Source of the DNA: Halolamina pelagica
GTDB taxonomy: Archaea; Halobacteriota; Halobacteria; Halobacteriales; Haloferacaceae
Assembly: GCF_900115675.1 (NCBI RefSeq)
Contig: NZ_FOXI01000001.1
Location: 1 to 64,000 of the forward strand
Reading direction: 5' to 3'
Length of the DNA: 64,000 bases
How positions within the stretch are numbered: the first letter of the stretch is position 1; the number at the start of each line of letters is the position of its first letter. The translations under genes were made by a program, and so were the position numbers. This document shows, piece after piece, positions 392-37,007 of this stretch. The notes below the pieces were generated by a model that was not told where the DNA came from, did not search any database, and saw only the letters and a list, made by a program, of their open reading frames with translations.

Positions 392-2068
392 TCAGCGATC
401 GGCCTCGCCGGACGGGAGATCGTCGAAGAACGCAGTGAGCAGTTTCCCCTCCGCATTTCGGAGGTGGTTGTGGAGCGTGGGCGAGGAGACGCCGACGGAG
501 TCGGCGAGCTCCTCCGCGGTCGAGTCCCGGGGCCACTCGAAGTAGCCGGCGTGGTAGGCCGCCCGGAGCACGGTCGCCTGCCGGTCCGAGAGCCGGTCGG
601 CCAGGCGCTCCCGGAACCCGGCCGCGGTCTCGGCGGGGTGGTCCGTCCGGCGCTTCGCGAGCAGCGCCACGTCGGGGTGGACCGCGGTCACGGCGTCGAC
701 GGCCGCCCGCACGTCGGCGTCGCCCGCGAGTTCTCCCGTGAGCGTCGCCGTCCCGCCGGTCGCGACCAGCGAGTGCACCCGACCGCCGGCGTCGAGCAGC
801 GCCATCGCCGGGGTGTCGGTCACCACGACCTCGACGGTCGCGCCGTCGCCGTACTCCGCCAGCACCCGAACGTCGTCGACGCCGTCGGCGGCTTCGGCCC
901 GATCCATCACCGCCTCGGCGCCCGCTCCCTCCACGTCGAGGTAGTACAGCAGCAACCCGTCGTCCACCGGGACGACCCCGGAGAGTTCGACCCGGCAGTC
1001 GAGCGCCGCCGAGAGGTCGGCCACGACCGACGCGCTCGCCGGACAGCGGAAGTCGAGTTCGACGACCGCGTCGGCGAGCAGCAGGCGCTTGCGCTCGACG
1101 GCGGTCAGCGCGTGGCCGACCTGTCCGGCGAGCGCGGTCAGCGTGTCGGTGGTCCTCCCGTCGGACTCGACGGTCGTCCCGAGCGCCAGCACTCCCGCCG
1201 AATCGTCGGTCGGCACCGGAACGATCACCACCGGCCCGTTCCCCCCGTCGACCTGCCGGATCTCCCCGTCGGCGACGGCGGCGTCGACGGCGTCGCCGTG
1301 GTCGTCCAGATGGCGGCGGACCGTCCGTTCGGCGACGCCGGCGATCGCCTGCAGCGTGAACGCGTCGCCGACTCGTTCGGCCAGCCACGCGAACCGGACG
1401 CCGGTGACGCCGGCGAGGCGCTCACACGCCGTCGCCGCCACCGCCTCCTGGCGGTCGCCGTCGCCGAGTTCGCCCGCGAGGTCGACTGATGCGTCCAGGA
1501 GCCCGTTGGTCAGGCCAGCGGGATCCCCCGCTTGCGACGCCGAGCCGCTGGCCTCGGCGCCGGCGACCGCGTCGATCAGGTCGTCACGGTCGGGATCGGG
1601 GAGGACGGGGGCGAGACTGTCCAACCGCTCCCACCCCCCGAGTTCGACGACCGTTTCCGGGGAGACACCGTCTTCGAGCAACTGCGCGGCGAAGTGCCGG
1701 CGGAGGTCCGTCGCCGAGGCGTCGACACCGGTGGTGCGGTCGATCACCTCCCCGAGTAGCATCGACAGCCGGCGGCCCGACACCGGGAACAGCGCCTCGT
1801 CGTCGTCGATCCCGTTGCTCGCCGCGTACTGTCGCAGGTCGCGAGCCACGTCCGCCGGGAGCGCGGTCTCGCGGGTCTCGTCCGTCCGGTCCGTGTCGAA
1901 CACCGCGAGCAGGTGGCCGCCGCCGTGTTCGAACGCGTCGCCCGGCCGGACGCGCGCCTGCTCGGCCGGTCGGAGTCCGGCCTCGCCACAGAGGCGGACG
2001 ACCAACTCCTCGCGGTGGGTGCGCGCCGCCTGCCGGACGCGCCGGTAGTCCTCGGCGTCGAGCGACAT
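392..2068 (-). CDS. Bat-like transcriptional regulator (GAF plus HTH_10)
   Basis: A 558-residue bacterio-opsin-activator type regulator. Residues about 1-165 resemble the catalytic fold of tyrosine recombinases (LRRHFAAQLLEDGVSPETV corresponds to box II), but the final nucleophilic Tyr region is not recognisable, so this is probably a retained scaffold and not an integrase. A GAF-like sensor follows at about 230-340, then the Bat-associated GAF/HTH domain, and the C-terminal HTH_10 at about 505-550 (DSVGVSSPTLHNHLRNAE). The start is placed at the ATG of 2066-2068; the open frame upstream is arginine-rich and lacks haloarchaeal acidity. Lying between two acs genes on the same strand, it is a reasonable candidate for controlling acetate activation; that role is inferred. 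Confidence 0.85.
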   Translation of the reverse strand: MSLDAEDYRRVRQAARTHREELVVRLCGEAGLRPAEQARVRPGDAFEHGGGHLLAVFDTDRTDETRETALPADVARDLRQYAASNGIDDDEALFPVSGRRLSMLLGEVIDRTTGVDASATDLRRHFAAQLLEDGVSPETVVELGGWERLDSLAPVLPDPDRDDLIDAVAGAEASGSASQAGDPAGLTNGLLDASVDLAGELGDGDRQEAVAATACERLAGVTGVRFAWLAERVGDAFTLQAIAGVAERTVRRHLDDHGDAVDAAVADGEIRQVDGGNGPVVIVPVPTDDSAGVLALGTTVESDGRTTDTLTALAGQVGHALTAVERKRLLLADAVVELDFRCPASASVVADLSAALDCRVELSGVVPVDDGLLLYYLDVEGAGAEAVMDRAEAADGVDDVRVLAEYGDGATVEVVVTDTPAMALLDAGGRVHSLVATGGTATLTGELAGDADVRAAVDAVTAVHPDVALLAKRRTDHPAETAAGFRERLADRLSDRQATVLRAAYHAGYFEWPRDSTAEELADSVGVSSPTLHNHLRNAEGKLLTAFFDDLPSGEADR

Positions 2069-21088: not shown

Positions 21089-24000
21089 ATGAGGGGGGTC
21101 GACACCGTCGTCGACGCCGTGATGGACCACAGCAAGGTGGTCATCGCGGTGATGCTGGTGCTGACCGTCGTACTGGGTAGCGGGGCCGCGATGGTCGAGC
21201 AGACCTCCTCGCTGGATCAGTTCCAGAGCGAGTCGCCGGAGGGCGACGCGCTCGACTACGCCGAGGAGAACTTCTCGACCGGCGACGAGGCCACCACGAC
21301 CGCGCAGGTGATCCAGCGCGACGACGACGTGTTGGACGAGGGGTCGCTGGTCGGCTTACTCGAGTACCAGCAGTCACTCCACGACAACGAAACCGTCAAC
21401 GCGACGCTCTCGGGCGATCGGCCCACCTCGAGCATCGCGAACGTGATCGCGATCGCGTCGATCACCGCCGAGGAGGGCGAGGACGTGCAGCGGACCGCCG
21501 CCGAACTGCAGGCGCTCAACGAGAGCGTGAGCGAGGAACGCGCGGCGATCGAGCAGCGCAACGAGACGTTGACTCGGACCGCCGGCCTCCTCCGTACGGG
21601 GCTGACGACGCTGCGGGAGAACCCTAACGCGAGCGTCGACGCCGTCTTCGCGGACGTGCAGGCGAACACGAGCGTCGAGTTCACCGACGAGGACGCCGCG
21701 ACGTTCGAGCAGGCGGCCCAACAGCTCCGGAACGCCGAGTCCGAGGAGGAGGTCCAGCAGGCGTACCGGCTCGGGACGCGTGGCGTCCTCGAGGACCAGT
21801 ACGCTACGCTGCAGGAGCGCTCGCAGGAGCTCCAGGCGGACGCCGAGCGCCTGCAGGAGTTGGCTGACGAACTCGAGACCGAGCGACAGCAGTACCGCAA
21901 CGCCTCCAACGCGACGCTCGCTGAGCAGCAGGAGGAGATCCGCTCGATGAACGAGTCGGAGCTCCACGACACCATCCAGCTAGTGCTCGGTGAGGACGCC
22001 GGGAACGACGGCGGCGAGGGCGTGGGGACGTTCGCGCTCATGCCGACCGACTACGAGCCCGGCTCGACCGAGGCCGAGGCCACGATGCTGATCGTGACGA
22101 TGGAGGGCGAGGGCTCGGCCTCGCAGGGGACCGCCGGCGAGGACGTGACCGACGCCCAGCTCGCGATGCAGGAGCTCGGTGAGGACGCCGAGGGCGGCGA
22201 GTACCTCGTCTTCGGCGCCGGGATCATCTTCGACGAGATCAACAACTCGATGGCCGACAGCCTCCTGATCGTCGGGCCGCTGGCGATCGTCTTCGTGCTG
22301 ATCGCGCTGATCGTCGCCTACCGCGACGTGCTCGACATCCTGCTGGGGCTGTTCGGCATCGGCGCGGTGCTCGCGTGGACGTTCGGCTTCATGGGCTGGA
22401 CGGGGATCGCGTTCAACCAGATCTTCATCGCCGTCCCGGTGCTGTTGATCGGGCTCAGCATCGACTACGCCATCCACATCTTCATGCGCCACCGCGAGGA
22501 GCGCGGGAACGCCGGCGGGAGCGCCCCCCGCGGCTCGATGCGGACCGCGCTGGTCGGCGTCGGGATCGCGCTGCTGTACGTCACGGCGACGACCGTGATC
22601 GGCTTCCTCTCGAACCTCACCAGCCCGGTGCCGCCGATCCGCGAGTTCGGCATCGTCAGCGCCGCGGGGATCACCGCGGCGCTGCTGGTGTTCGGCCTGC
22701 TGATCCCGGCACTCAAGGTCGAACTCGACGAGTTCCTCGAAGCCCGCGGCATCGACCGACGGAAGCAAGCCTTCGGCACCGGCGGCGGCGCGTTCTCGTC
22801 GGTGCTCGCCGTCGGCGCGACCGCCGCGCGCAAGAGCCCGTACCTGGTCATCGTCGCCGCGCTGCTGCTCAGCGCCGGCGGCGGCTACGGCGCGACCCAG
22901 GTCGACACCTCCTTCGACCAGACCGACTTCATCGCGGAGGACCCCGACGACTGGATGAAGGACCTCCCCGAACCGTTCGCCCCGAGCACGTACACCGCGA
23001 AGGCGAACCTGGAGTACGTCAACGACAACTTCGTCCGGCAGGACTCGCAGGCACAGATCCTGATACGCCAGAACAGCTCCGGCGCGCTCACACAAGACGA
23101 CGTGTTGGAACGCGTCGCCGCCGCCGAGCGCGAGGCCGCCGCCCAGGAGAACGTCACCCAGACGCTCTCGAACGGTGAGGCACGGATCGAGAGCCCGCTG
23201 TCGGTGATGGAGTCGGTGGCCGCCGAGAACGAGTCGTTCAACGAGAGCTTCGTCGCCGCCGACACCGACGGCGACGGCGTGCCCGACCGGAACCTCGGCG
23301 TGCTGTACGACGACCTCTACGAGGCCGCGCCGGACCGCGCCGCGGGCGTGATCGAGCGCGACGACGGCGAGTACACCGCCATGCGGATCGTGGTCTCCGT
23401 GCAGGGCGGCGCCGGCGGCGACGCGGTGACCGAGTCGATGCGGTCGGTCGCCGACGAAGTCCGTGGCGACGGGCTGGACGCGACCGCCACCGGCAGCGCA
23501 GTCCTGAACAAGATCGTCCAGGACCAGCTGCTCGAGACGGTCGTCGAGAGCCTGCTCATCACGCTCGTGGCGACGTTCGTCTTCCTGATGATCGCCTACC
23601 GGATCACCGAGGGCAGCGCGACGCTGGGCGCGGTGACGCTGCTTCCCGTCGCGTTCAGCGTGACGTGGATCCTGGGGACGATGCACCTGCTGGAGATCCC
23701 GTTCAACGTCATCACGGGGATGATCACCAGCCTCACCGTCGGGCTCGGGGTCGCCTACAGCATCCACCTCTCCGAGCGCTACAACCAGGAGCTCGAGCGC
23801 ACCGGCGAGATCTGGACGGCGATGGAGCGCGCGGTCACCGGCACCGGCGGCGCGCTGCTCGGCTCGGCGGCCACCACGGTCGGCGGCTTCGGCGTGCTGG
23901 TGTTCGCGATCCTGCCGCCGCTCCAGCAGTTCGGGCAGATCACCGGGCTCACGATCGTCTACGCGTTCCTCGCGAGCGTGCTGGTGTTGCCCTCGCTGCT

Positions 24001-24577
24001 CGCAGTCTGGACCAAGTACGTCGGGCCCGACGGCGTGTTCCCCGCGCCCGACGACGGTGACGCGCCGACGGGCGCCGGCGCCGCTGTGGCGGGCGACGGC
24101 CCGCGAGCGGAACGACGCCTCGACCGCCGCGTCGTCGCGCCCGGCGAGCGGGTCACGGTGACCCTCGAGACCGCCGGCGTCGACGGCCGCGCAGTGCTCT
24201 ACGAGCGCGCCGGCGAGGGTCCGACCGTCGAGTCAGCCAGCCCGGAGCCGGTCCGGACGGCCGAAACCGACGAGGTGGTCTCGGTCGCGTTCGACGACGA
24301 GAACCCGACGCTGCGGTACACGACCGGCGTGCCCGCGGAGGCGGGCGACGGCGACCGGCTCGGCTTCGACGGCGCGCTGGTGGTCGACGGCGAGTACTAC
24401 CCGGTCGACGGCGCCGAGGCGGTTGAGGTCGTGGCGGACGTGTTCGAGCGCGTGACCGCATCCGGGACGGTCTCGGCGGCGGACCTCGACGACGCCTACG
24501 AGAGCTTCGACCAGGGCACGCTGAGCGAGGGACAGCTCAACCGCGTAAACCAGGCCTGGACCCGCGAGGAGGAGTGA
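21089..24577 (+). CDS. RND superfamily (MMPL/HAE3-type) exporter
   Basis: A 1162-residue proton-driven exporter. TM1 is at about 17-38; a large extracytoplasmic domain follows with a predicted coiled coil (about 145-290, rich in Glu, Gln and Arg), then TM2-6 from about 391, with GLSIDYAIHIFMRHREER near 460. The second half repeats this layout, with helices from about 813 and the matching GLGVAYSIHLSERYNQELE. After the last helix (near 980) comes an unusual soluble C-terminal domain of about 180 residues. A GGAGGTG Shine-Dalgarno sequence precedes the ATG at 21089. The TrmB gene overlaps its stop by one base. Confidence 0.92.
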   Translation: MRGVDTVVDAVMDHSKVVIAVMLVLTVVLGSGAAMVEQTSSLDQFQSESPEGDALDYAEENFSTGDEATTTAQVIQRDDDVLDEGSLVGLLEYQQSLHDNETVNATLSGDRPTSSIANVIAIASITAEEGEDVQRTAAELQALNESVSEERAAIEQRNETLTRTAGLLRTGLTTLRENPNASVDAVFADVQANTSVEFTDEDAATFEQAAQQLRNAESEEEVQQAYRLGTRGVLEDQYATLQERSQELQADAERLQELADELETERQQYRNASNATLAEQQEEIRSMNESELHDTIQLVLGEDAGNDGGEGVGTFALMPTDYEPGSTEAEATMLIVTMEGEGSASQGTAGEDVTDAQLAMQELGEDAEGGEYLVFGAGIIFDEINNSMADSLLIVGPLAIVFVLIALIVAYRDVLDILLGLFGIGAVLAWTFGFMGWTGIAFNQIFIAVPVLLIGLSIDYAIHIFMRHREERGNAGGSAPRGSMRTALVGVGIALLYVTATTVIGFLSNLTSPVPPIREFGIVSAAGITAALLVFGLLIPALKVELDEFLEARGIDRRKQAFGTGGGAFSSVLAVGATAARKSPYLVIVAALLLSAGGGYGATQVDTSFDQTDFIAEDPDDWMKDLPEPFAPSTYTAKANLEYVNDNFVRQDSQAQILIRQNSSGALTQDDVLERVAAAEREAAAQENVTQTLSNGEARIESPLSVMESVAAENESFNESFVAADTDGDGVPDRNLGVLYDDLYEAAPDRAAGVIERDDGEYTAMRIVVSVQGGAGGDAVTESMRSVADEVRGDGLDATATGSAVLNKIVQDQLLETVVESLLITLVATFVFLMIAYRITEGSATLGAVTLLPVAFSVTWILGTMHLLEIPFNVITGMITSLTVGLGVAYSIHLSERYNQELERTGEIWTAMERAVTGTGGALLGSAATTVGGFGVLVFAILPPLQQFGQITGLTIVYAFLASVLVLPSLLAVWTKYVGPDGVFPAPDDGDAPTGAGAAVAGDGPRAERRLDRRVVAPGERVTVTLETAGVDGRAVLYERAGEGPTVESASPEPVRTAETDEVVSVAFDDENPTLRYTTGVPAEAGDGDRLGFDGALVVDGEYYPVDGAEAVEVVADVFERVTASGTVSAADLDDAYESFDQGTLSEGQLNRVNQAWTREEE

Positions 24578-25323
24578 TGGACGACGCCGACGCCGCGGCG
24601 GCGCTGACCGAACTCGGGCTGTCGACGTACGCGGCCCGGACGTTCGTCGGCCTCCAGAAGCTCGGCGTCGCGAGCGCCAGCGAGATCGCGCAGGTCGCGG
24701 ACGTGCCCCGGTCGCAGGTGTACGGCGCGGCCGACGAACTGGAGGAACTCGGCCTGATCGACGTCCAGGAGGGCTCGCCCACGCGCTACCGCCCGGTCGA
24801 CATCGACGAGGCCCGGGAACTGCTGTACGACCGGCTGCACTCGACCACCGAGGGCGCGTTCGATCACCTGGAGACCGTGCGCGGCCAGCAGGCCCCCACC
24901 GACGACCGGGAGGCCATCTGGACGACCGAGGGCCGGGAGAACGTCACCGCCCGGGTCACCTCGCTGGTCGCGGGCGCGGACGAACGGGTGCTGTTCGCGA
25001 CCAGCCGCCCCTCGCTGCTGTCCGGCGACGTGGCCGACGGGCTCGCCGACGCCGACGCGGCGGGCGTGGACGTGATCGTCGCCAGCGCCGACGCGGCCGT
25101 GCGCGAGGCCGCCAGCGAGGCCGGGCTCTCGGCGGTCGCGGTGGCGGACGCGACGCCCGAACTCAGCGTCGGCCGCGTGCTGCTCGTCGACGACGACACG
25201 GTGTTGCTGAGCGTCCGACCGACCGCCGAGATGCAGTCGGTCGCCGACGAGTCGGCGTTCTGGAGCGACGGGACGGGGTTTGCGCGCGTGCTGGCGGCGG
25301 TGATCCGCCAGGCGTTCGTCTGA
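24577..25323 (+). CDS. TrmB family transcriptional regulator
   Basis: A 248-residue regulator. The N-terminal TrmB wHTH spans about 5-70 (LTELGLSTYAARTFVGLQKLG, then ADVPRSQVYGAADELEELGLI), followed by a dimerisation segment and a C-terminal PLD-like sensor domain (REAIWTTEGRENVTARV, VLFATSRPSLL). TrmB proteins usually sense sugars, but this one sits with an RND exporter. Its ATG overlaps the exporter stop (TGATG), so the two are translationally coupled. Confidence 0.88.
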   Translation: MDDADAAAALTELGLSTYAARTFVGLQKLGVASASEIAQVADVPRSQVYGAADELEELGLIDVQEGSPTRYRPVDIDEARELLYDRLHSTTEGAFDHLETVRGQQAPTDDREAIWTTEGRENVTARVTSLVAGADERVLFATSRPSLLSGDVADGLADADAAGVDVIVASADAAVREAASEAGLSAVAVADATPELSVGRVLLVDDDTVLLSVRPTAEMQSVADESAFWSDGTGFARVLAAVIRQAFV

Positions 25324-26020: not shown

Positions 26021-27034
26021 TCAGTCGACCCAGCGCAGCACACTCGCCGCCCACGTGTAGCCCGTCCCCGCGGCGAGGAACAGAACCACGTCGCCGTCCT
26101 CGACCAACCCGCGATCCAGCCCTTCGTCGAGTGCGAGCACCTGATCGACGCTCTGGACGTGCCCGTACCCGTCGAGGTAGTGGTGGCCGTCGCCGACGCC
26201 CAGTTCGTCGGTGAGGTAGTCGTGGAACGAGCGCTTCATGTGGGTGAGCGCGACGAAGTCGATATCCTCGCGGGTCAACCCCGCCTCGGCGAGCGCGTCG
26301 TCGGCGACTTCGAGGAAGTTCGCGAGGCTCACCTCGCCCAGCCGTTCCTTCATCCCCTCGGGGTCCGGCACCGTCAGCCTGTGGAGCCCCTCGTCGACGG
26401 TCGCCGGGCTGGGCGGGCGCTCGGAACCGCCGGCGGGCATGATCACGTCCCGGGAGAACGAGCCGTCGGTCTTCGCGGCGTGGCCGTGGACGGTCGCCCG
26501 CGCGCGGTCGCCGGCGTCGCGTTCGAGGACGGTCGCACACGCGCCCGACCCGAAGTTGAACATGAAGGAGGCGTCGGCGTCCGTGTAGTCCACGAGGTCC
26601 TCCTCGCGGCTGGCGCCCACGAGCAGCGCGGTGTCCACATCTCCCGTCCGGATCTGTGCGGCCACCTGCCGGAACGCGATCGGCTGGCCGGCACACAGCG
26701 AGTAGCTCTCGGTCGCGAACGCGTTCTCGGCGCCGAGGCGCTCGGCGATGTCCGCCGCCGCCGACCAGACGACGTGGTCCTTGTACTCCGAGCCGTGGTA
26801 CAGCACCAGATCGACCGCGCTCGCGTCGACGCCGGCGTCGGCGAGCGCCTCGCGGGCCGCGGCCACGCCCATGTCGGTGACGTGGTCGCCGTCGGGCGGA
26901 CAGACGTGTTTCCCGGCGACGCCCATCTTCTCGACGACCACCGACTCGGGGACGCCCGAGCGGTCGGCGATCGCCTCGCCGGTGATCGTTTCCTGCGGTA
27001 CGTCGCGCCCGTAGCCAGTGAGTGAGACGGTCAT
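26021..27034 (-). CDS. KAS-III (FabH)-like thiolase-fold protein
   Basis: A 337-residue beta-ketoacyl-ACP-synthase-III-like protein. The nucleophile is Cys114 in ESYSLCAGQPIAFRQ and the first catalytic His is 265 in ALTHMKRSFH. At the site where FabH has Asn in YGNTS, this protein reads YGHVQS, putting His292 there. Archaea lack bacterial fatty-acid synthesis, so a CoA-ester condensing or acyl-transfer role is more likely. It starts 31 bases after livM on the same strand and is likely the last gene of the Liv operon. The ATG at 27032-27034 was chosen as the family start. Confidence 0.83.
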   Translation of the reverse strand: MTVSLTGYGRDVPQETITGEAIADRSGVPESVVVEKMGVAGKHVCPPDGDHVTDMGVAAAREALADAGVDASAVDLVLYHGSEYKDHVVWSAAADIAERLGAENAFATESYSLCAGQPIAFRQVAAQIRTGDVDTALLVGASREEDLVDYTDADASFMFNFGSGACATVLERDAGDRARATVHGHAAKTDGSFSRDVIMPAGGSERPPSPATVDEGLHRLTVPDPEGMKERLGEVSLANFLEVADDALAEAGLTREDIDFVALTHMKRSFHDYLTDELGVGDGHHYLDGYGHVQSVDQVLALDEGLDRGLVEDGDVVLFLAAGTGYTWAASVLRWVD

Positions 27035-27065: not shown

Positions 27066-28265
27066 TCAGTCGCGCCGGTAGCGGTCGAGGTAGTCGGGGA
27101 GCTGTTTCGCGACCGTGCCGCCGAGGCGGTCACGGACGGTGCCGAGCAGGCCGTTCGGGACGTAGAGCACGAACAGCACGAAGATCACGCCGACGTAGAG
27201 GCTGGCGTGGCCGTTGAGGAACGTCTCGATGGCGCCGCCGACGGTGAGGCCGCCGACGAGGTCGGCCTCGATCACGCTCGCCGGGAGGTGGTCCCGGAGG
27301 TACGGCAGCAACCCGCCGCCGGAGCCGCGTTTCGAGAGGAACTCCCGGACGGTCTCGTCGAACAGTCGGCCGTACAGCGGCCCGGCCAGCGTGCCGAAGC
27401 CGCCGATGATCGACGCCAACAGCGCGTCGCCGGTCACGAGGAAGTACATCGAGCTGTCGGGCGCGACCGAGCGGCCGTAGCCGCCGCTCAGTCCGCCCGC
27501 GACCGCGGCGAAGAACCCGCTGATCGCGAACGCCGCGAGCTTGAACTGGAACGGCTCGTAGCCGACCGCCTCGGCGCGCTCCTCGTTCTCCCGGATCGCC
27601 AGCAGCACCGTGCCGAACGGGGAGTGGATCAGGCGCTGCATCGCGAGGTAGCAGACGAGCACCACCAGCCCGACCATGTAGTACGACACCTCCGTCCCGG
27701 AGAGCGAGACGAACAGGAACTCCACGGTGTCGCCCGTCAGTCGGCCGATCTCGAGGTTGAGCGCGTCGATCCACGGGATCCCGACGTCGAACCCGTCGGG
27801 GTGGACGTCCGTCGACACCGCGGCGCCGTCCTTCGGGTTCTCGCTCACGTAGTCCCAGCCGCGGACGAACACGTACGCGACCTGGGCGAAGCCGAGGGTG
27901 ATCATCGCGAAGTACACCCCCGAGAGCCGGAAGGAGAGCGCGCCGATGGCCAGCGCGATGGCGACCGCCAGCAGCCCCGCCAGCAGCAGCATGAGCATGA
28001 ACGGCGTCCCCGGCGCGAGCAGCGGCACCTGTCCGTTGGCCGCGAGCACGACGAAGTACGCGCCCGTGCCGTAGAAGATCGCGTGGCCGAAGGAGAGGTA
28101 GCCGGTGTAGCCCGAGACGAAGTCGAACGACATCGCGAACAGGCCGAAGTAGAACACCCCGACCATCGTGTCGACCCGCGGCAGCAGCGTCTCGGCCTCG
28201 GTGCCCAGCGGCGACGCCACGAGCAGCGCGTAGACGAACGGGTACAGCGCCAGCGCCGCGACCAC
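27066..28265 (-). CDS. livM: Branched-chain amino acid-type ABC permease (LivM)
   Basis: Second permease of a Liv-type uptake system: about 399 residues from this GTG with some ten hydrophobic segments and the LivM signature FDFVSGYTGYLSFGHAIFYG at about 47-66. The QIAGVSG-like EAA loop is represented by RENEERAEAVGYEPFQFKL. The frame continues upstream for 55 codons to an ATT at 28428-28430 that overlaps the livH stop; that extension is acidic, ends in GTEWWRRYLREHT and looks coding, so the true start may be that ATT. The C-terminal part contains a family-unusual insert of about 70 residues. Confidence 0.9.
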   Translation of the reverse strand: MVAALALYPFVYALLVASPLGTEAETLLPRVDTMVGVFYFGLFAMSFDFVSGYTGYLSFGHAIFYGTGAYFVVLAANGQVPLLAPGTPFMLMLLLAGLLAVAIALAIGALSFRLSGVYFAMITLGFAQVAYVFVRGWDYVSENPKDGAAVSTDVHPDGFDVGIPWIDALNLEIGRLTGDTVEFLFVSLSGTEVSYYMVGLVVLVCYLAMQRLIHSPFGTVLLAIRENEERAEAVGYEPFQFKLAAFAISGFFAAVAGGLSGGYGRSVAPDSSMYFLVTGDALLASIIGGFGTLAGPLYGRLFDETVREFLSKRGSGGGLLPYLRDHLPASVIEADLVGGLTVGGAIETFLNGHASLYVGVIFVLFVLYVPNGLLGTVRDRLGGTVAKQLPDYLDRYRRD

Positions 28266-28425: not shown

Positions 28426-29439
28426 CTAATGGCCCCCCACCTCCTCGACGCCGAACAGTCCCTGCGGCCGTACGATCAGCGTCAGTACCAGTACGAGGAA
28501 GATCATCATCTCTGGGAGCCCGGTGAAGGTGATCGCGTTCTGGAACCACCACGTCATCGTCGCGTCGACCAGGCCGACGAGCCCCGCCGCGACGACGGTG
28601 CCACGGAACGTGCCGAGGCCGCCGACGATCACGACGACGAACGCGGGCAGCAGCGTCTCGTGGGCCAGCGGGAGGCTCGCGCCCCAGACGGGGTCCCACA
28701 TCAGCAGCATGCCGGCGACGCCGGCGACCGCGGAGCCGAGCGCGAACACGGTGGTGAACACGCGGTTCACGTCGATCCCCAGCGCGGCGGTCATCTCGTC
28801 GTCCTCGCTGCCGGCCCGGACCACCATCCCGTAGCGGGTCCGGGTGAGGAACAGCCAGACGGCGCCGATGGTGACGACGCCGAAGACGATCTGGAACAGC
28901 GCGAGGGGTGCGACCGTGAGCCCGGCGACCTCCAGGTTCTCGGCCATGAAGCCGGGCTTGGTGCCCAGCGCGTCCCGCCAGTCGGTGATCGGCTGGAGCC
29001 CGTAGAACGCGACGACGATGCGGGCCCCCTCGTCGAGTACGAGCGCCAGCCCGAACGTCAGCAGGATCTGGTAGATCGGCGGCCGGTCGTAGAGCTGGCG
29101 GATCAGCCCCACCTCGACGGCGCCGCCCAGCGCGCCGATGGCGGCGAAGACGACCAGCGTCCCGACGAGGAAGAAGAGCACGCGGGCGAGGTCGCCCGTC
29201 GCGCTCCCGACCAGCACCACCATCACCAGCCCGCCGAGGTAGGCGCCGAGCATGGTGAACGAGCCGTGGGCGAAGTTGAGCACGCCGAGCAGCCCGAACA
29301 CGAGCGTCAGGCCGCTGGCGATCATCGCGTACAGCGCGGCCTTCGAGAGCCCGTTCAGGAGCACCTCCGACAGCGTCCCCGGCCGGAAGAACTCCCCCAG
29401 CGCGTCGACGAACAGCGGTGCGAGTACGGTCCCCGTCAT
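28426..29439 (-). CDS. livH: Branched-chain amino acid-type ABC permease (LivH)
   Basis: First permease of the Liv system, 337 residues with eight or so hydrophobic segments. LivH features include GLTLVFGLLGVLNFAHGSFTM near residue 40-60 and the cytoplasmic coupling loop RTRYGMVVRAGSEDDEMTAALG followed by INVNRVF-like residues. It imports amino acids or other carboxylates delivered by the binding protein. Its ATG overlaps the livF stop by four bases. The loop between helices 4 and 5 is longer than in bacterial LivH. Confidence 0.92.
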   Translation of the reverse strand: MTGTVLAPLFVDALGEFFRPGTLSEVLLNGLSKAALYAMIASGLTLVFGLLGVLNFAHGSFTMLGAYLGGLVMVVLVGSATGDLARVLFFLVGTLVVFAAIGALGGAVEVGLIRQLYDRPPIYQILLTFGLALVLDEGARIVVAFYGLQPITDWRDALGTKPGFMAENLEVAGLTVAPLALFQIVFGVVTIGAVWLFLTRTRYGMVVRAGSEDDEMTAALGIDVNRVFTTVFALGSAVAGVAGMLLMWDPVWGASLPLAHETLLPAFVVVIVGGLGTFRGTVVAAGLVGLVDATMTWWFQNAITFTGLPEMMIFLVLVLTLIVRPQGLFGVEEVGGH

Positions 29440-30134
29440 GCCGAGAGGTGCCTCCTGAGCCGTTCCGAGTCGGTCGACACCTCGTCGGCGTCGCCGCTGT
29501 CGACGACGACGCCGTGGTCCAGTACGTAGAAGCGGTCCGCCAAGTCGAGCGCCATGGGGAGGTTCTGCTCGACGAGCAGGATCGTGGTCTCGCCGGCCAC
29601 CGCCTCGAGCGCGTCGTGGACGGCCTCGACGATCAGCGGCGCCAGCCCCTCGCTGGGCTCGTCGACAAGCAGCAGATCGTTCTCACCCACGAGCCCGCGG
29701 GCGATGGCGAGCATCTGCTGTTGCCCGCCGGAGAGGTCGCCGGCGTCGCGGTCGCGGATCTCCTCGAGGTCGGGGAACGCGTCCCACGCGAGTTCGAGCC
29801 CCGCCTCGACGTCCGAGCCCTTCGGGACGGCGATGCGGACGTTCTCCTCGACGGTGAGCTGGCTGAACATCCGGCGGTCCTCCGGGATCCACCCCACGCC
29901 GGCGTCGGCGACCTCGTGGGTCTCCTTGCCGACCAGCTCCTCGCCCCGGTAGCGGATCGACCCTTCGCGGGGCGGGGTGAGCTGGAGGATGCTCCGCAGC
30001 GTGGTGGTCTTGCCGACGCCGTTGCGACCCATCAGCGCGACCACCTCGCCCTCCTCGATCTCGAGGTCGACGCCCTCGAGGATGTGGCTCTCGCCGTAGT
30101 ACGTCTCGACGCCGTCGAGTTCGAGCAGGCTCAC
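29436..30134 (-). CDS. livF: Liv-type ABC transporter ATP-binding protein (LivF)
   Basis: A 232-residue ATPase of the HAAT (hydrophobic amino acid) class. Walker A is GRNGVGKTTTLRSI, signature LSGGQQQMLAIARGL, Walker B LLLVDEPSEGLAP, and ETTILLVEQNLPMALDLADR holds the switch region with the LivF-typical Gln-Asn in place of His. The start is a GTG at 30132-30134 whose GTGA overlaps the livG stop by three bases, a coupling seen throughout this operon. Confidence 0.93.
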   Translation of the reverse strand: MSLLELDGVETYYGESHILEGVDLEIEEGEVVALMGRNGVGKTTTLRSILQLTPPREGSIRYRGEELVGKETHEVADAGVGWIPEDRRMFSQLTVEENVRIAVPKGSDVEAGLELAWDAFPDLEEIRDRDAGDLSGGQQQMLAIARGLVGENDLLLVDEPSEGLAPLIVEAVHDALEAVAGETTILLVEQNLPMALDLADRFYVLDHGVVVDSGDADEVSTDSERLRRHLSA

Positions 30135-30970
30135 GGCTCGGCCCCCTCGCCGGCATCCGTTCCGTCGTCCGCACTGTCGCCCGTCGTCGCCCCACTGGTC
30201 GTGGGTGCCTCCCTGCCGTCCTCGCCGTAGCCGCCGAGATACGCCCGCTGGACCGCGGGATCGTCCTGCACGGCCTCGGGCTCGTCGTCGGCGATGACGG
30301 CGCCCTGGTTCAGCACGACGATCCGATCGGAGACGTTCATCACGATGTCCATGTTGTGCTCGACCAGCAACACCGCGTGGTCGCGGGCCACGTCGACGAT
30401 CAGGTCGATGATGTCGTCGACGCTCTCGCTGGAGACGCCGGCGTTCGGCTCGTCGAGCAGCAACACGTCGGGGTCGCCCGCGAGCGCGATGCCGACCTCG
30501 AGTTGGCGCTTCTCGCCGTGGGAGAGCGCGCTCGCGGGGCGATCGGCCAGCGCGTCGAGCCCCACGCGGTCGAGGATGCGGTAGGCCTCCTCGACGTGTT
30601 CCTCGAACGCGGCGGCGTTCCGCCACCCCTTCCAGTCGTTCGGGCCGGCCGCCTGCGCGGCCACGCGGACGTTCTCCAGCACGGTCCGTTCGGGGAAGAC
30701 GTTCGTGATCTGGTAGGATCGGTGGACCCCCGCCTGCGCGACCTCGGCCGGGGAGGCGTCGGTGAGCGGTTCCCACTCGCCGTCCCGGCGGAGTTCGATA
30801 CTGCCGGCGGTGGGTTCGAGCGCACCGGTCAGGAGGTCGAAGAACGTCGTCTTGCCGGCGCCGTTGGGGCCGATCAGCGAGCAGAGTTCCCCGTCACGAA
30901 GCTGGAAGTCGACGCTGTCGACGGCGGTGAGCCCGCCGAAGCGTTTGGTCAGTCCGGCGGTGCGGAGCAT
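30131..30970 (-). CDS. livG: Liv-type ABC transporter ATP-binding protein (LivG)
   Basis: A 279-residue ATPase partner of LivF. Walker A is GPNGAGKTTFFDLLTG, signature LSHGEKRQLEVGIAL (with His replacing the usual second Gly, as in most LivG proteins), Walker B LLLDEPNAGVS and switch LLVEHNMDIVMN. A Ser/Thr/Asp/Gly tail of about 30 residues follows the LivG end (YLGGYG). It abuts the livK stop directly, so it belongs to the same transcript. Confidence 0.93.
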   Translation of the reverse strand: MLRTAGLTKRFGGLTAVDSVDFQLRDGELCSLIGPNGAGKTTFFDLLTGALEPTAGSIELRRDGEWEPLTDASPAEVAQAGVHRSYQITNVFPERTVLENVRVAAQAAGPNDWKGWRNAAAFEEHVEEAYRILDRVGLDALADRPASALSHGEKRQLEVGIALAGDPDVLLLDEPNAGVSSESVDDIIDLIVDVARDHAVLLVEHNMDIVMNVSDRIVVLNQGAVIADDEPEAVQDDPAVQRAYLGGYGEDGREAPTTSGATTGDSADDGTDAGEGAEP

Positions 30971-32314
30971 CTAGAGCGAGCAGTTCATCCCCGGCGCGTC
31001 GGCGGGGATCGTGGTCTCGTCCTTCCCGATCGTCGCGAGCGGCTCGCCGGGCTGGATCGCGGCCTGCCAGCTGTCGCTCCACTCGTCGCTGGTGGGTGCG
31101 AGGTCCGCGACAGTCATCGCCGATCGGGCCTGGTTGTTGTACTCCTGGAACGTGTACCCGTCCTCGCCTTTCGGCGTGTCCGTCACGGTCATCCCACGGA
31201 GCGCCTCGGCCACGTCGCTGCCGCTCGTGGAACCGGCGGACTGGACGGCCTGGACGATCGCGGAGGCGGCGGTGAACGTCCCCGAGGAGAAGAGGTCGGG
31301 CACGGTGCCGTAGGCGTCGGTGTAGCTCTCGACGAAGGAGCTGTTGATGTCGTTGTCGTACTGGTTCCAGTGGTAGCGAGTCGTGAACGGTCCGAGCCCG
31401 GAGTTGTCGATCTTCTCCTGTGTCAGGGGCTCCCCCAGCGCCTGCTGGAGCGTCTGGCCCACGACCGCGTTGGTGATACGGGTCGCGAGGCCGCCGAACA
31501 CCGAGTAGCTGTAGTCGCCCTGCAGGTAGGAGGTGAACATGGCGGGCAGCGTCGCGACGGTGAAACCGCCGACCACGCCGTCGGCGCCGGCCTCCTCGGC
31601 GTTGTCGAGCAGCCCCTCCCACTCGCTGTACCCCTGCGGGACGAAGCGCTTGCCGGCGATCTCGACGCCGTTGTTCGACAGCACCTGCTCGTAGTTGTTG
31701 ACGACCGCGCGGCCGAAGGAGTAGTCGGCGCCGAACAGGTACACCGAGGAGATGTCGGTCTCCTGGGCGACGTACTTCCCGCCCGAGCGGGCGTCCATCG
31801 CGGTGTTCTCGGAGGCCCGGAACACGATGTCCGAACAGGTCCCCTCGTTCGAGGAGATCCCGGCCGACGCCGCGGGGCCGGCCATGAACGGCACGTCGGC
31901 GGTGTCGACGACCGTGTCGATCACCCGGCCGGCCGCGCCCGAGGACGCGGTGCCGAACAGCATGTCCACGCTCTCGTTCTCGACGAGGTCCGTCGCCGCC
32001 GACTGCGCGGTGTCCGCGCTGAACTGCGTGTCACGTACCAGCAGTTCGTAGTCGGTGTCGCCGGCGGTGACGGTGTAGCTCCCCGTGGTCGACTCCTCGA
32101 CGGGGTCGGTGTCGCCCTTGTAGGCGAGCCCGGAGAAGAACCCCCAGAGCGCCTGTTTCCCGTAGTAACCGAGGTCGCCCGATACCGGCTGGAGCACGCC
32201 GATCTTCATCGACCCGCCGCCCCCTCCGAGTGCGTCTGTACAACCTGCGAGTCCGGCGACGCCGGCCGCGCCGGTCGCTCGAAGCATTCCGCGTCGGGAT
32301 AGCTTTCGCGCCAT
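30971..32314 (-). CDS. Liv-type substrate-binding lipoprotein
   Basis: Periplasmic-binding-protein-like lipoprotein of the Leu/Ile/Val/urea/amide class, 447 residues. The N-terminus has a twin-arginine signal (SRRGMLR, Arg7-Arg8) and a lipobox ending in AGC with Cys25, so it is Tat-exported and lipid-anchored, as is usual in haloarchaea. The mature part begins KIGVLQPVSGDLGYYGKQAL and keeps the type-1 PBP pattern FGTASSGAAGRVIDTV. The ligand is not deducible, but neighbouring acyl-CoA genes suggest a carboxylate. A GTG six codons upstream (32332) is an alternative start. First gene of the Liv operon. Confidence 0.92.
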   Translation of the reverse strand: MARKLSRRGMLRATGAAGVAGLAGCTDALGGGGGSMKIGVLQPVSGDLGYYGKQALWGFFSGLAYKGDTDPVEESTTGSYTVTAGDTDYELLVRDTQFSADTAQSAATDLVENESVDMLFGTASSGAAGRVIDTVVDTADVPFMAGPAASAGISSNEGTCSDIVFRASENTAMDARSGGKYVAQETDISSVYLFGADYSFGRAVVNNYEQVLSNNGVEIAGKRFVPQGYSEWEGLLDNAEEAGADGVVGGFTVATLPAMFTSYLQGDYSYSVFGGLATRITNAVVGQTLQQALGEPLTQEKIDNSGLGPFTTRYHWNQYDNDINSSFVESYTDAYGTVPDLFSSGTFTAASAIVQAVQSAGSTSGSDVAEALRGMTVTDTPKGEDGYTFQEYNNQARSAMTVADLAPTSDEWSDSWQAAIQPGEPLATIGKDETTIPADAPGMNCSL

Positions 32315-32354: not shown

Positions 32355-32366
32355 TTAACATGTGAA
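32355..32366. promoter_or_regulatory. Regulon palindrome, site A (Liv operon)
   Basis: TTAACATGTGAA, one mismatch from the perfect palindrome TTCACATGTGAA found at 36553-36564. It lies 40 bases upstream of the livK ATG. See sites at 33179 and 36553. Confidence 0.65.
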
Positions 32367-32395
32367 TAATCCGGCCGTGGGCGGCCCTCCGGGCG

Positions 32396-33097
32396 CTACT
32401 CCAGGTCCCCCAGGGCGTCGACGACCCGCTCGATCAGCTTCCGCTCGGCCCGTCGGAGGTTCTTCGAAGCTGCGGGCTTGGAGACGTCGAACTCGTCGGC
32501 GAGATCGCCCAACGTCGCGTCACGTGGGCTCTCGAAGTAGCCGCCCTCCACCGCGGTTTCGAGCGTCTCGCGCTCGGTCTCCGAGAGCTCCCGGCAGCCG
32601 TCGATCAGCGTCATCGCGGCACCCGCGTTGCTCATCAGTTCGGAGACCTCCGGGATGCTGGTGTCCTCACGGGAGAGGACGGAGAAGTCGTTGTTGCGTT
32701 CCAACCCCGCGAGCGCGCCGTCGGCGAGCCCGTCGTTGTCGAACCCGACGTGCCACGTCTCGCGGCCGTCCTCGATGTAGAACGGGCCGGTGACGTAGCC
32801 GTCGTTCTGGCGGATCGTGCGCATCGCGCTCGTCTCCTCGATCGTGGTCCGTATCCGCGCGGCGCCGTCGCGCTTGGCCAGCAGGTCGAACCCCTGCATC
32901 CCCCGGTGGTCACGGAGCTCCGACAGCCCCTGATCGAGTTCGTGGCGGTCGGGCGCCTCCACGACCATCCGGGTCTCGAGCTCCCCGGCCGCGGGGTTGA
33001 ACTCCCAGTACGACGCCGCGAAGCTCAGCTCGGCGTCGTCGGTCGTGTCGATGAAGGGGCAGTCGTACTGCCGCATATCGAGTGCGATGTCGATCAT
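32396..33097 (-). CDS. HTH_10 (Bat-type) transcriptional regulator
   Basis: A 233-residue regulator of the haloarchaeal HTH_10 class: an N-terminal sensor domain of about 165 residues (with VVEAPDRHELDQGLSEL and YIEDGRETWHVGFDNDG) and a C-terminal HTH_10 (LSETERETLETAVEGGYF, then LADEFDVSKPAASKNLRRAE). Placed between the Liv operon and the SDR gene, it is the natural candidate to act on the shared TTCACATGTGAA-type palindromes. The ATG at 33095-33097 is chosen; a TATA-like CTTAACACGATATA precedes it. The longer TTG frame would overlap this element. Confidence 0.88.
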   Translation of the reverse strand: MIDIALDMRQYDCPFIDTTDDAELSFAASYWEFNPAAGELETRMVVEAPDRHELDQGLSELRDHRGMQGFDLLAKRDGAARIRTTIEETSAMRTIRQNDGYVTGPFYIEDGRETWHVGFDNDGLADGALAGLERNNDFSVLSREDTSIPEVSELMSNAGAAMTLIDGCRELSETERETLETAVEGGYFESPRDATLGDLADEFDVSKPAASKNLRRAERKLIERVVDALGDLE

Positions 33098-33178
33098 GGG
33101 GGGTGGGACTGCACTGTCATGAACGATCCGCCTATATCGTGTTAAGGGTTTCCGTGGGGCATTCAAGTCCGGTACGGG

Positions 33179-33190
33179 TTCACACCTGAA
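33179..33190. promoter_or_regulatory. Regulon palindrome, site B (SDR promoter)
   Basis: TTCACACCTGAA, within the perfect inverted repeat GGTTCA-CACC-TGAACC. It ends exactly 38 bases before the SDR ATG, the same spacing as site C to its two flanking genes. Confidence 0.65.
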
Positions 33191-33228
33191 CCCTCCCTTA
33201 TTGGGTCGTCCGGCAACTCCCGTCGGCC

Positions 33229-34089
33229 ATGTCGGACGACTCCATCCCGGGTGCGGACGGGCCGGACCTCACCGCCGCGAACGTACTCGACGTCGACGAC
33301 GACCGCTACGCCGCCGGTTCGGTCGCACTGGTCACCGGCGCGGCCTCGGGGATCGGCCGGGCCACCGCCGTCGCGCTCGCGGTCAACGGCTGTACCGTCG
33401 CCGCGACCGACGTGGACGCCGACGGGCTCGCCGGGACGGTCGACCGCGCGGCCGAGCTCGACGCCGACGGGACGGTCCACCCGATCGAGGGCGACCTGAC
33501 CGACGACGGCGATATCGAGGACGTCGTCGACACGGCTGCCGAGTACGGGGATCTACGGTTCCTGGCCAACGTCGCCGGCCTCCAGCACGTCGCGCCGATC
33601 GAGGAGTTCCCGGCCGAGCAGTACGACCTGATGCAGGAGGTGATGCTCCGGGCGCCCACGCTCCTGTCCAAGCACGCCGTCCCCCACATCCGCGAGGCCG
33701 GCGGCGGCGCCGTCGGCAACATGGCGTCGGTCCACGGCCACTACACCACGAGCGACAAGGTGGCGTACAACGTCTGCAAGTTCGGGGTCCGCGGCCTCAC
33801 CCAGTCGCTGGCCGCCGAGGGCGACGGCACCGTCCGGGCGTTCTCGGTGTCGACGGGCTACGTCTCGACGCCGCTGGTGACGGCCCAGATCCCCGACACG
33901 GCCGAACAGCGCGGCCTGACCGAGCAGGAGGTGGTCGAGGACGTGATGCTGGGCCAGTCCCGAACCGAGCGGATGATGAGCCCCGTCGAGGTGGCGAACC
34001 TGTTCGTCTTCGGCTTCTCCCGACACGCGAAACACCTCAACGGCGGGGATCTGCTGTTCGACGGCGGGATGACGAACACCTACGAGTAG
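33229..34089 (+). CDS. SDR oxidoreductase, 3-hydroxybutyrate dehydrogenase-like
   Basis: A 286-residue short-chain dehydrogenase. The NAD-binding motif TGAASGIG is at 36-43 with Asp61 after beta-2 pointing to NAD(H) preference. The catalytic residues are Ser167, Tyr180 and Lys184 (AYNVCK). The block GYVSTPLVTAQIPDTAEQRG closely resembles the signature of D-3-hydroxybutyrate dehydrogenases (GYVxTPLVxxQI). It would oxidise a 3-hydroxy acid to the 3-keto acid. The N-terminal 28 residues are an acidic extension. Convergent with the acyl-CoA ligase gene. Confidence 0.88.
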   Translation: MSDDSIPGADGPDLTAANVLDVDDDRYAAGSVALVTGAASGIGRATAVALAVNGCTVAATDVDADGLAGTVDRAAELDADGTVHPIEGDLTDDGDIEDVVDTAAEYGDLRFLANVAGLQHVAPIEEFPAEQYDLMQEVMLRAPTLLSKHAVPHIREAGGGAVGNMASVHGHYTTSDKVAYNVCKFGVRGLTQSLAAEGDGTVRAFSVSTGYVSTPLVTAQIPDTAEQRGLTEQEVVEDVMLGQSRTERMMSPVEVANLFVFGFSRHAKHLNGGDLLFDGGMTNTYE

Positions 34090-34125
34090 CCCGCCGCGGG
34101 CGGTACTCGGCCGGTCCCGAACCGC

Positions 34126-35715
34126 TCACTCCCCGAACCGGTCGTCGACCGCGCCGCGGTCGATCTTCGAGGGGCCGGAGGTCGGCATCTCGTCGACGAA
34201 CGCGAGCGCCTTCGGGTGCTTGAACCGTGCCAGCCGACCGTCGAGGAAGTCGTTCAGCTCCTCGAGCGTCAGTGACTCGTCGCCGACGACGACGGCCTTC
34301 CCCACTTCGCCCCACGTCTCGTCGGGGATCGGCACCACGACCGCCTCCTCGACCTTCGCGTGGTCGGTGAGGGCGTTCTCGACGGCGGCGGGGTAGACGT
34401 TCTCGCCGCCGGAGACGAACATGTTCTTTTTGCGACCCTCGATGTAGTAGTACCCCTCGTCGTCGACGCGGACGAGGTCACCCGTCGAGACCCAGCCGTC
34501 GTCGGCGTCGCCCGTCGGCCCGAACGTCCCGCGCGTCTCGGACTCGTTCCCCCAGTAGCGGTCGGCGGCGTGGGGCGAGGCGAGTTCGAGTTCGCCGACC
34601 TCGCCCCGGTCGACCACCTCGCCGGCGTCGTCGACGACCCGGGCGTCGACGTGCATCGCCGGCACGCCGACGCTGTCAGCCTTCTCTCGGGGCCAGCCCT
34701 CCGGCATGGTGAAGTTGTTCGGGCCGCACTCGGTCAGCCCGTACCCCTGCGAGAGGTCGACGCCGCGGTCCCACCACGTCCGGAGCACCGCGTCGCGACA
34801 GGGGCCGCCGCCGGATTTCGCGAACCGCAGCGACGACAGGTCGGTGTCGGCCCAGTCGTCGTGTTCGGTCATCATCCGCAGGACGGCGGGCACCGCGACG
34901 AGCACCGTCGCGCCCGTGCGTTCGACCAGGTCCAGCACCTCCGCGGGGTCGAACTCCCGGGCGATCACCACCTCGCCGCCCATGTGGAACAGCGGGAGGG
35001 TGAGCACGTTCCAGCCGCCGGTGTGGAACATCGGGAACACCATCGGCGTGGTGTCGTCCTCGCGCAGCCCCCACGCCGTGATGGTGTTGAACGAGTTCCA
35101 GAGCAGCCCGCCGTGGGTCAGCACCGTCTCCTTCGGGGTCCCGGTCGAGCCGCCGGTGTGGAGAAGGAGGGCGGGGTCGTCCATCGAGAGGTCGGCCGTC
35201 TCGACTGGCGAGTCGTCGTCGGGGCGCTCGTCGAGGAGGGAGGGGTGGTCGACCGCCCGCTCGCCCTCGGCCGGCAGCGACCGGACCGTCGTCGCCACGT
35301 CGACGTGATCGAGCGCGTCGTCGACGGCGTCGGCGAACGGCGCTTCGACGACCAGCAGTTCGGGGTCCACGTTCCCGAGCAGCTCGCCCAGTTCCCGCGC
35401 CGCGAGTCGGTGCGAGAGCGGCGCGAGCACGCCGCCGGTCTTCCCGCAGGCGAAGAAGAGGTCGACCAGCGCCGGGCGGTTCCGCGAGACAACCGCGACG
35501 CGCTCGCCGTCGTCCACGCCGTGTTCGCGGAGCAGGCGCGCGGTCCGGTTCGCCCGGGCGTCGAGGTCGGCGTACGTGAACTCCCGCCCCGTGGTGTCGT
35601 CGACGAGGCCGACGCGGTCGGGGGAGAGCTCGGTGCGCTTCTCGCTCCAGGCGCCCACCCAGTCGTAGGGGCGCGAGCTGTGGCTGTGGACCGGCGTGAA
35701 CTCGCTACCGGGCAT
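34126..35715 (-). CDS. Acyl-CoA ligase (AMP-binding)
   Basis: A 529-residue ANL-superfamily ligase of the medium/long-chain acyl-CoA synthetase type. The adenylation motif is LLLHTGGSTGTPKETVLTHG near 190; QGYGLTECGPNNFTM holds the A5 motif; GDLVRVDDEGYYYIEGRKK the A7/A8 hinge; and the C-terminal lysine is in PTSGPSKIDRGAV. It activates a carboxylic acid with ATP and CoA. The start lies inside the end of the hydrolase gene (overlap of 11 bases; an ATG two codons further upstream is also possible), so the pair forms one operon. Confidence 0.92.
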   Translation of the reverse strand: MPGSEFTPVHSHSSRPYDWVGAWSEKRTELSPDRVGLVDDTTGREFTYADLDARANRTARLLREHGVDDGERVAVVSRNRPALVDLFFACGKTGGVLAPLSHRLAARELGELLGNVDPELLVVEAPFADAVDDALDHVDVATTVRSLPAEGERAVDHPSLLDERPDDDSPVETADLSMDDPALLLHTGGSTGTPKETVLTHGGLLWNSFNTITAWGLREDDTTPMVFPMFHTGGWNVLTLPLFHMGGEVVIAREFDPAEVLDLVERTGATVLVAVPAVLRMMTEHDDWADTDLSSLRFAKSGGGPCRDAVLRTWWDRGVDLSQGYGLTECGPNNFTMPEGWPREKADSVGVPAMHVDARVVDDAGEVVDRGEVGELELASPHAADRYWGNESETRGTFGPTGDADDGWVSTGDLVRVDDEGYYYIEGRKKNMFVSGGENVYPAAVENALTDHAKVEEAVVVPIPDETWGEVGKAVVVGDESLTLEELNDFLDGRLARFKHPKALAFVDEMPTSGPSKIDRGAVDDRFGE

Positions 35716-36514
35716 GTGCATCGAGGAACGTCCGGAGTCGGTCGGCCACGGCGTCGGGCTGTTCGACGAAGAAGAGGTGCGGGCCGCCCTCGAACAGTTC
35801 GAGTTCGGCGTGCGGGAGTCGCTCCGCGAGCGCGTGGGCGTTCTCGACGGGGAGCACCTCGTCGTCGGTGCCGTGCATGATCAGCGTCGGCACGGAAAGC
35901 TCGTCGAGTTCGTCGCTGGCGTCGAACGCCTGTACCGCGGCGGCCTGCGCGGTCCGGCCGGCTTCGCTGGCGTCGGAGTCGAGCCGCCAGTCCACGATCC
36001 GCTCGACGAGGTCGGGGTGTTCCTCGGCGAAACCGTCGGAGATCGCGGGCGTCATCTTGTACCGGATCGCCTCGCGCTCGTCGGCGTCCTCCGGCACGTC
36101 GAACATGAACGCCTGCGTCTCCTCGGGAACCGGGACGGCGTCCTCGCCGCCGTGGGAGGTACACAGCAGCGCGAGCGACCGGGCGCGGTCGTCGTCCAGC
36201 GCGAAGCGCTGGGCGATCATCCCGCCCATGCTGGCGCCGACGACGTGGGCCTCCTCGACGCCGGCGTCGTCGAGGACGGCCGCCAGGTCGCCGGCCATCT
36301 CCGCGATGGTGTAGGGTCCCTCCGGACAGTCCGAGTCCCCGGTCCCGCGGTTGTCGAAGACGATGGTGTCGTAGGTCTCCGAGAGCGGGTCGCGTTGGAA
36401 CTGCCACATCCACGTCCCGTAGCCCAGGCCCTCCACGAAGACGACCGTCGGCGCCGACTTCGGCCCCTCCCGGTCGTAGGAGAGCGCCACGTCGCCGTTG
36501 TGCGCGGTTGGCAT
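35705..36514 (-). CDS. Alpha/beta hydrolase
   Basis: A 269-residue alpha/beta-fold hydrolase. The nucleophile elbow is GASMGG (serine near 105) in HVVGASMGGMIAQRFAL, the acid is in LIMHGTDDEVLPVENA, and the His in FEGGPHLFFVEQPD. The oxyanion region FVEGLGYGTWMW is typical of enol-lactone hydrolase/esterase-like members. It could release an acid that the overlapping ligase then activates. The ATG at 36512-36514 is exactly 38 bases from palindrome C. Confidence 0.88.
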   Translation of the reverse strand: MPTAHNGDVALSYDREGPKSAPTVVFVEGLGYGTWMWQFQRDPLSETYDTIVFDNRGTGDSDCPEGPYTIAEMAGDLAAVLDDAGVEEAHVVGASMGGMIAQRFALDDDRARSLALLCTSHGGEDAVPVPEETQAFMFDVPEDADEREAIRYKMTPAISDGFAEEHPDLVERIVDWRLDSDASEAGRTAQAAAVQAFDASDELDELSVPTLIMHGTDDEVLPVENAHALAERLPHAELELFEGGPHLFFVEQPDAVADRLRTFLDAHAR

Positions 36515-36552
36515 ACCCCTACCGTGTTTCGCCCCGTCTATCAAGGGCCGTA

Positions 36553-36564
36553 TTCACATGTGAA
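36553..36564. promoter_or_regulatory. Regulon palindrome, site C (divergent promoter)
   Basis: A perfect 12-base palindrome, TTCACATGTGAA, lying exactly midway between divergent start codons: 38 bases to the hydrolase ATG on one side and 38 to the MaoC-like ATG on the other. The symmetry suggests one bound regulator controls both directions. Confidence 0.75.
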
Positions 36565-36602: not shown

Positions 36603-37007
36603 ATGCCTGTCGCGGCCGCCGGCGACGACGCCGAGGTAGCGCGCGAAGTGACCCGAGAGACCATCGACCGGTACGCCGATCTCACCGGCGACGAGAACCG
36701 GCTCCACACCGACGAGGCGTACGCCGCCGAGGGGTTCTTCGGCGGCGTCGTCGCCCACGGGATGCTGGGGGCGGGGCTGATCAGCGCCGCGCTCGCGGCG
36801 CTGCCGGGCGATATCGTCTACCTCTCCCAGGACCTCGATTTCGAGGCGCCGGTCAGACCCGGCGACACGGTCCGGGCGACCGTCGAGGTCGTCGAGGAGC
36901 TGGGGGACGACCGCGTGCGCGTCGAGACGGTGGCCGAGGTCGTCGACGACGCGACCACCGTGATCGACGGCGAGGCGGTCGTGCTCTCGGTCCCGCACGG
37001 GGAGTAA
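36603..37007 (+). CDS. MaoC-like (R)-enoyl-CoA hydratase
   Basis: A 134-residue hot-dog-fold hydratase resembling PhaJ-type (R)-specific enoyl-CoA hydratases. The hydratase motif is TGDENRLHTDEAYA (Asp and His catalytic), followed by FFGGVVAHGMLGAGL. It converts trans-2-enoyl-CoA to (R)-3-hydroxyacyl-CoA, or the reverse. With the 3-hydroxybutyrate-type SDR and the acyl-CoA ligase it makes a plausible short oxidation or PHA-precursor route; no PHA synthase is in the window. Confidence 0.9.
   Translation: MPVAAAGDDAEVAREVTRETIDRYADLTGDENRLHTDEAYAAEGFFGGVVAHGMLGAGLISAALAALPGDIVYLSQDLDFEAPVRPGDTVRATVEVVEELGDDRVRVETVAEVVDDATTVIDGEAVVLSVPHGE

Follow-up and report, generated by a model that had tools for sequence, protein, structure and literature searches.

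A conserved palindrome before haloarchaeal import and acyl-CoA genes and its probable HTH_10 regulator

Genes and palindromes of the cluster

The window (the whole stretch of Halolamina pelagica DNA that was analysed, 64 kb in length) carries a cluster of import and acyl-CoA genes with an HTH_10 regulator gene in its midst (Table 1). The import operon runs from 32314 to 26021 in the order livK-livG-livF-livH-livM-KASIII-like synthase, and the livK protein begins, from its ATG, with MARKLSRRGMLRATGAAGVAGLAGC. Across the loci compared below, the livG, livF and livH region (28426-30970) corresponds to conserved families F1, F3 and F7, and livM and the KASIII-like synthase belong to conserved families F8 and F9; the synthase recurs in 19 of the loci. 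The hydrolase, which is esterase/enol-lactonase-like, overlaps by 17 bp the acyl-CoA ligase with which it forms one operon, and the solved structure nearest to the ligase is a fatty-acyl/feruloyl-CoA synthetase. The SDR scores 225.5 bits against TIGR01963, below the curated cut-off of 307, and thus falls short of membership in that family; its best PDB matches, and so the best of its solved relatives, are 3-hydroxybutyrate dehydrogenases. We also considered an OleABCD-like olefin pathway, composed of the KASIII, hydrolase, ligase and SDR genes, and set it aside because the SDR has the character of a classical 3-hydroxybutyrate dehydrogenase.

Table 1. Features of the 64-kb window, with the ATG positions used for measuring operator distances
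Feature	Positions	Strand	ATG	Remarks
Second, larger HTH_10 gene	392-2068	-		At the window start
MMPL transporter, then TrmB-family regulator	21089-25323	+
KASIII-like 3-oxoacyl synthase	26021-27034	-		NCBIfam PRK06840, above cut-off; last in livK operon
livM	27066-28265	-		LivM/UrtC-like matches; livK operon
livH, ABC transporter gene	28426-29439	-		Pfam ABC_tran/BPD_transp_2 (livG and livH)
livF, ABC transporter gene	29436-30134	-		livK operon
livG, ABC transporter gene	30131-30970	-		Pfam ABC_tran/BPD_transp_2 (livG and livH)
livK, Peripla_BP_6 solute-binding lipoprotein	30971-32314	-	32314	Pfam PF13458; first import-operon gene
Putative operator 1, TTAACATGTGAA	32355-32366			Reads TTCACATGTTAACC towards livK; 40 bp before livK ATG
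HTH_10 (Bat-like) regulator, HVO_2525_N sensor domain	32396-33097	-		Pfam PF04967 and PF24279; proposed activator
Putative operator 2, GGG-TTCACACCTGAA-CCC	33179-33190			38 bp before SDR ATG
SDR	33229-34089	+	33229	Nearest family 3-hydroxybutyrate dehydrogenase; stands alone
AMP-dependent acyl-CoA ligase	34126-35721	-		Pfam PF00501
Alpha/beta hydrolase	35705-36514	-	36514	Pfam Abhydrolase_1; first of two-gene operon
Putative operator 3, TTCACATGTGAA	36553-36564			One site for the divergent promoters of hydrolase and MaoC, each ATG 38 bp away
MaoC-like (R)-enoyl-CoA hydratase	36603-37007	+	36603	Pfam PF01575; stands alone

An earlier, sequence-only reading of this DNA had claimed three palindromes of the TTCACATGTGAA type, the first two flanking the HTH_10 gene and the third lying at equal distances from the two genes that diverge from it. 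All three are present as described, the four spacings proved correct when re-measured, and both the placement of the regulator gene and the symmetry of the third site were borne out. With up to two mismatches allowed, the window contains three matches to the motif; shuffled sequence would give 0.30 on average, and none of 100 window shuffles gave three.

Conservation of sites, spacing and target genes

In the whole genome the motif has 17 matches at up to two mismatches, against 18 for the reversed control; the genome-wide count therefore resembles chance, whereas the clustering and placement of the sites do not. The cluster holds the single exact match in the genome and, of the two that differ at one position, one. 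Twelve of the 14 other copies were inspected, and none of these has a credible gene start 36-43 bp downstream, credibility being judged by eye from the listed frames. A wider genome-wide regulon was therefore rejected, no further placed copies having been found among those examined, and the regulon in this genome is local, with three operators, four promoters and about ten genes. The sequence-only reading had named random positions genome-wide as the outcome that would refute a regulon; this outcome holds for the degenerate matches of this genome only and not for the conserved sites. A match count equal to the control is what functionless short palindromes, lying near starts by chance, might give, but across genera the site, its spacing and the identity of the genes that follow are all conserved, which refutes this explanation and leaves it with a negligible probability.

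Across the order the footprint of the motif is strong. A search blind to gene content, for TTMACATGTKAA followed by a start 34-44 bp later, matched 100 of 392 genomes, compared with 13 for a reversed-pattern control. Of the matching loci, 30 belonging to other families of this order were retrieved, and in 29 of them the downstream gene is livK, the hydrolase, MaoC or the SDR (the exception is L098). We also scanned the surroundings of 76 named HTH_10 orthologues (from Halolamina, Haloarcula, Halorussus, Haladaptatus, Halobaculum, Halobacterium and others), where TTNACATGTNAA occurs in 63 copies and the reversed control motif is absent from 1.36 Mb; for 62 of the 63, a long frame opens with its ATG at a distance of 36-44 bp, which is true of 5.3% of random positions.

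The spacing is characteristic of each target. Within the same family the hydrolase start usually has TTAACATGTGAA or TTCACATGTGAA at 38 bp, and the divergent MaoC gene shares the hydrolase's site at 37-38 bp. Counted over distinct promoters, the distance is 38 bp for the hydrolase in 38 of 44 and 37-38 bp for MaoC in 28 of 29. The livK gene keeps TTCACATGTTAAC at about 40 bp, and in many genera an operator precedes it by 38-43 bp. Relatives of the same genus, Halolamina, keep TTCAYACCTGAA before the SDR; both there and in other families the SDR operator stands at 38-40 bp. In some genomes (G249, G185 and G020) the hydrolase/MaoC and livK gene sets lie far apart or on different contigs (about 300 kb apart in G249, on two contigs in G020), and the operator is kept at both, as is predicted of a regulon acting in trans. 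The proposal of a single regulon, which had been drawn from the window alone, thus gains support from a pattern that recurs in many genera of haloarchaea and in independent genomes, including those in which the gene set is split: these four genes are preceded, at a fixed distance, by one and the same operator.

At position 1501 of two further loci, L047 and L049, the former from another family, an exact TTCACATGTGAA stands 38 bp before acyl-CoA-ligase-like genes.

The HTH_10 protein and the promoters

The C-terminal domain of the regulator belongs to the HTH_10 family (PF04967, 65.6 bits against a cut-off of 23.1), and its N-terminus is an HVO_2525_N domain, predicted to be a beta/alpha sensor with two similar halves. 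In the structure model this domain has pLDDT values mostly above 90; its matches to PDB structures are weak, the best sensible one being Ta1207 (TM 0.43). The HTH part of the model resembles sigma region 4, and a sequence search of the PDB with the protein gave nothing significant. To our knowledge, few of the many haloarchaeal HTH_10 regulators have known operators.

No regulator family other than HTH_10 is conserved in the loci of the cluster, and HTH_10 is present in 91 of the 100 motif genomes compared with 124 of the 292 others (Fisher p about 7e-19, uncorrected for ancestry). The residues that open its recognition helix mostly appear to track the operator variants, in classes whose rules were written after viewing the sequences: where the hydrolase operator is of the TTMACATGTKAA type the helix starts with KP in 28 of 30 loci, with TA in all nine loci with TTGAAACGTTAAC-type operators and with DT in all six with TTGATA-type operators. 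Two loci, L090 and L091, are exceptions, with a TA helix and a TTCACATGTGAA or TTCATATATGAA operator, and in 17 of 61 KP loci the retrieved flank, about 9 kb long, lacks a motif of this kind placed before a start. The KP association in the 76 named loci is biased, as these were selected by recognition-helix patterns, and both the co-occurrence and the helix covariation owe part of their strength to shared ancestry. In one genus, g13 (L069, L071, L073, L075, L078, L079, L084 and L086), TTGAAACGTTAAC stands 38 bp before the hydrolase and TA replaces KP.

Synteny, co-occurrence and the covariation of the helix favour the HTH_10 protein as the regulator. The regulon might nonetheless be real and its palindrome be bound by another protein, with the adjacent HTH_10 gene a co-inherited passenger; the binder could be a different HTH_10 paralogue, as the genome carries 20 HTH_10 domains, or a winged-helix dimer of the TetR, IclR or Lrp type encoded elsewhere. 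This would accord with the nine of the 100 motif genomes in which an HTH_10 orthologue was missing at the cut-off used, and with the promoter of the HTH_10 gene itself, which has no operator at the target-gene spacing (-38), here or in other genera. It accords poorly with the conservation of no other regulator family in the loci, with the covariation of helix and operator, and with the presence of HTH_10 beside the operators even in loci reduced to HTH_10, the SDR and a different transporter, and we regard it as unlikely. Autoregulation of the HTH_10 gene through operator 2 is likewise unsupported, its ATG lying 81 bp away on the opposite side of that site and such an arrangement being absent in other genera.

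The promoters themselves bear on the sign of the regulation. When hydrolase promoters are aligned on the operator, TTGA appears from 9 bp past it, at the position of the TATA box; in livK promoters a cTTG lies 2-3 bp further on, and the start codons are displaced by the same 2-3 bp. The general layout is an operator, an interval of 8-11 bp with the BRE region, a weak TATA-like element and the start codon. This spacing fits leaderless promoters; most haloarchaeal transcripts lack a leader, in Haloferax volcanii 72% of them (PMC4983044). That both sides of operator 3 measure 38 bp, which had seemed striking, follows from such a geometry and is no separate curiosity. With weak core elements and an operator just upstream, an activator would suit these promoters.

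A protein bound next to the BRE region could also block assembly, and the HTH_10 protein might accordingly be a repressor that denies TFB and TBP access to the promoter until the substrate releases it. We consider this less probable still than a different binder, since TTGA replaces the TATA box in the weak core promoters of the targets and a better TATA-like element is often seen before the HTH_10 gene, a pattern suited to activation, and since the described Bat-like relatives are activators (PMC11218638).

On balance, we estimate the probability at about three in four that an HTH_10 dimer binds the palindromes as the activator of one conserved haloarchaeal import/acyl-CoA regulon, both binding and activation being what we infer from these comparisons. 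The palindromes, with a consensus near GGTTnACATGTnAACC, would be the operators of this small and deeply conserved regulon; most likely the dimer of the neighbouring HTH_10 protein would bind each of them immediately before the BRE/TATA region and, once bound, would activate transcription from weak leaderless core promoters. Its targets would be livKGFHM with the KASIII-like synthase, the hydrolase/acyl-CoA-ligase operon and MaoC, with the SDR in some lineages, and the one symmetric operator between hydrolase and MaoC would drive both directions. The common substrate proposed in the sequence-only reading may be a carboxylic acid or a hydroxy acid that is activated to its CoA ester. The N-terminal domain of the regulator probably senses either this acid, once imported, or the CoA ester as the signal.

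Relation to known regulators and a possible sister regulon

Among known systems, Bat at the bop upstream activating sequence of Halobacterium is, like the proposed regulator, an HTH_10-type activator whose site immediately precedes the TATA box; unlike the present regulator it has PAS and GAF domains, and its site is of different sequence. The bacterial FadR and PsrA are acyl-CoA-responsive local regulators that likewise use a palindromic operator common to genes of acyl-CoA metabolism, but they belong to unrelated protein families and act on bacterial promoters.

The sequence of the palindrome resembles a haloarchaeal denitrification motif. In Haloferax mediterranei the promoter motif CGAAYATDKTYG, including CGAACATGTTCG, lowers the activity of the nor and nos promoters when mutated; NarO, which is Bat-like, is the regulator proposed in Haloferax volcanii, and NarO and DmsR are the described Bat-like regulators of this kind, without PAS/GAF domains (PMC10062603, PMC11218638). 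The link between the CGAA motif and an HTH_10 protein is indirect in Haloferax mediterranei itself, as the authors found no NarO homologue there (PMC10062603). The two motifs have in common a 12-bp palindrome with an ACATGT core (CGAACATGTTCG in the nor and nos promoters); the arms are TTnA...TnAA here and CGAA...TTCG there, so that the present sites share the core alone with the NarO/DmsR type. The targets differ as well, being acyl-CoA and import genes here and respiration there, as does the distance to the ATG, which is 37-43 bp here and 66-79 bp in nir, nor and nos. In the open literature searched, no relevant paper contained the motif.

We entertain, at somewhat less than even odds, the broader idea of an undescribed order-wide regulon whose operator has diversified together with a single HTH_10 subfamily, with KP, TA and DT matched to the operator arms in a readable recognition code. 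As sequence comparison over a whole order reveals the operator, its promoter position, the targets and a candidate code, the function of the regulator is directly testable in relatives that carry it, Haloarcula among them. An uncharacterised set of importer, ligase, hydrolase, hydratase and dehydrogenase would also be tied to one pathway.

In five other loci (L158, L162, L164, L166 and L179) HTH_10 paralogues adjoin an SDR, most of them with a different Liv-type transporter, and the SDR is preceded by the related palindromes TATACATGTCAAC, TTGATATGTTAAC and TTGTACATGTTAAC. These loci are possibly a sister regulon.
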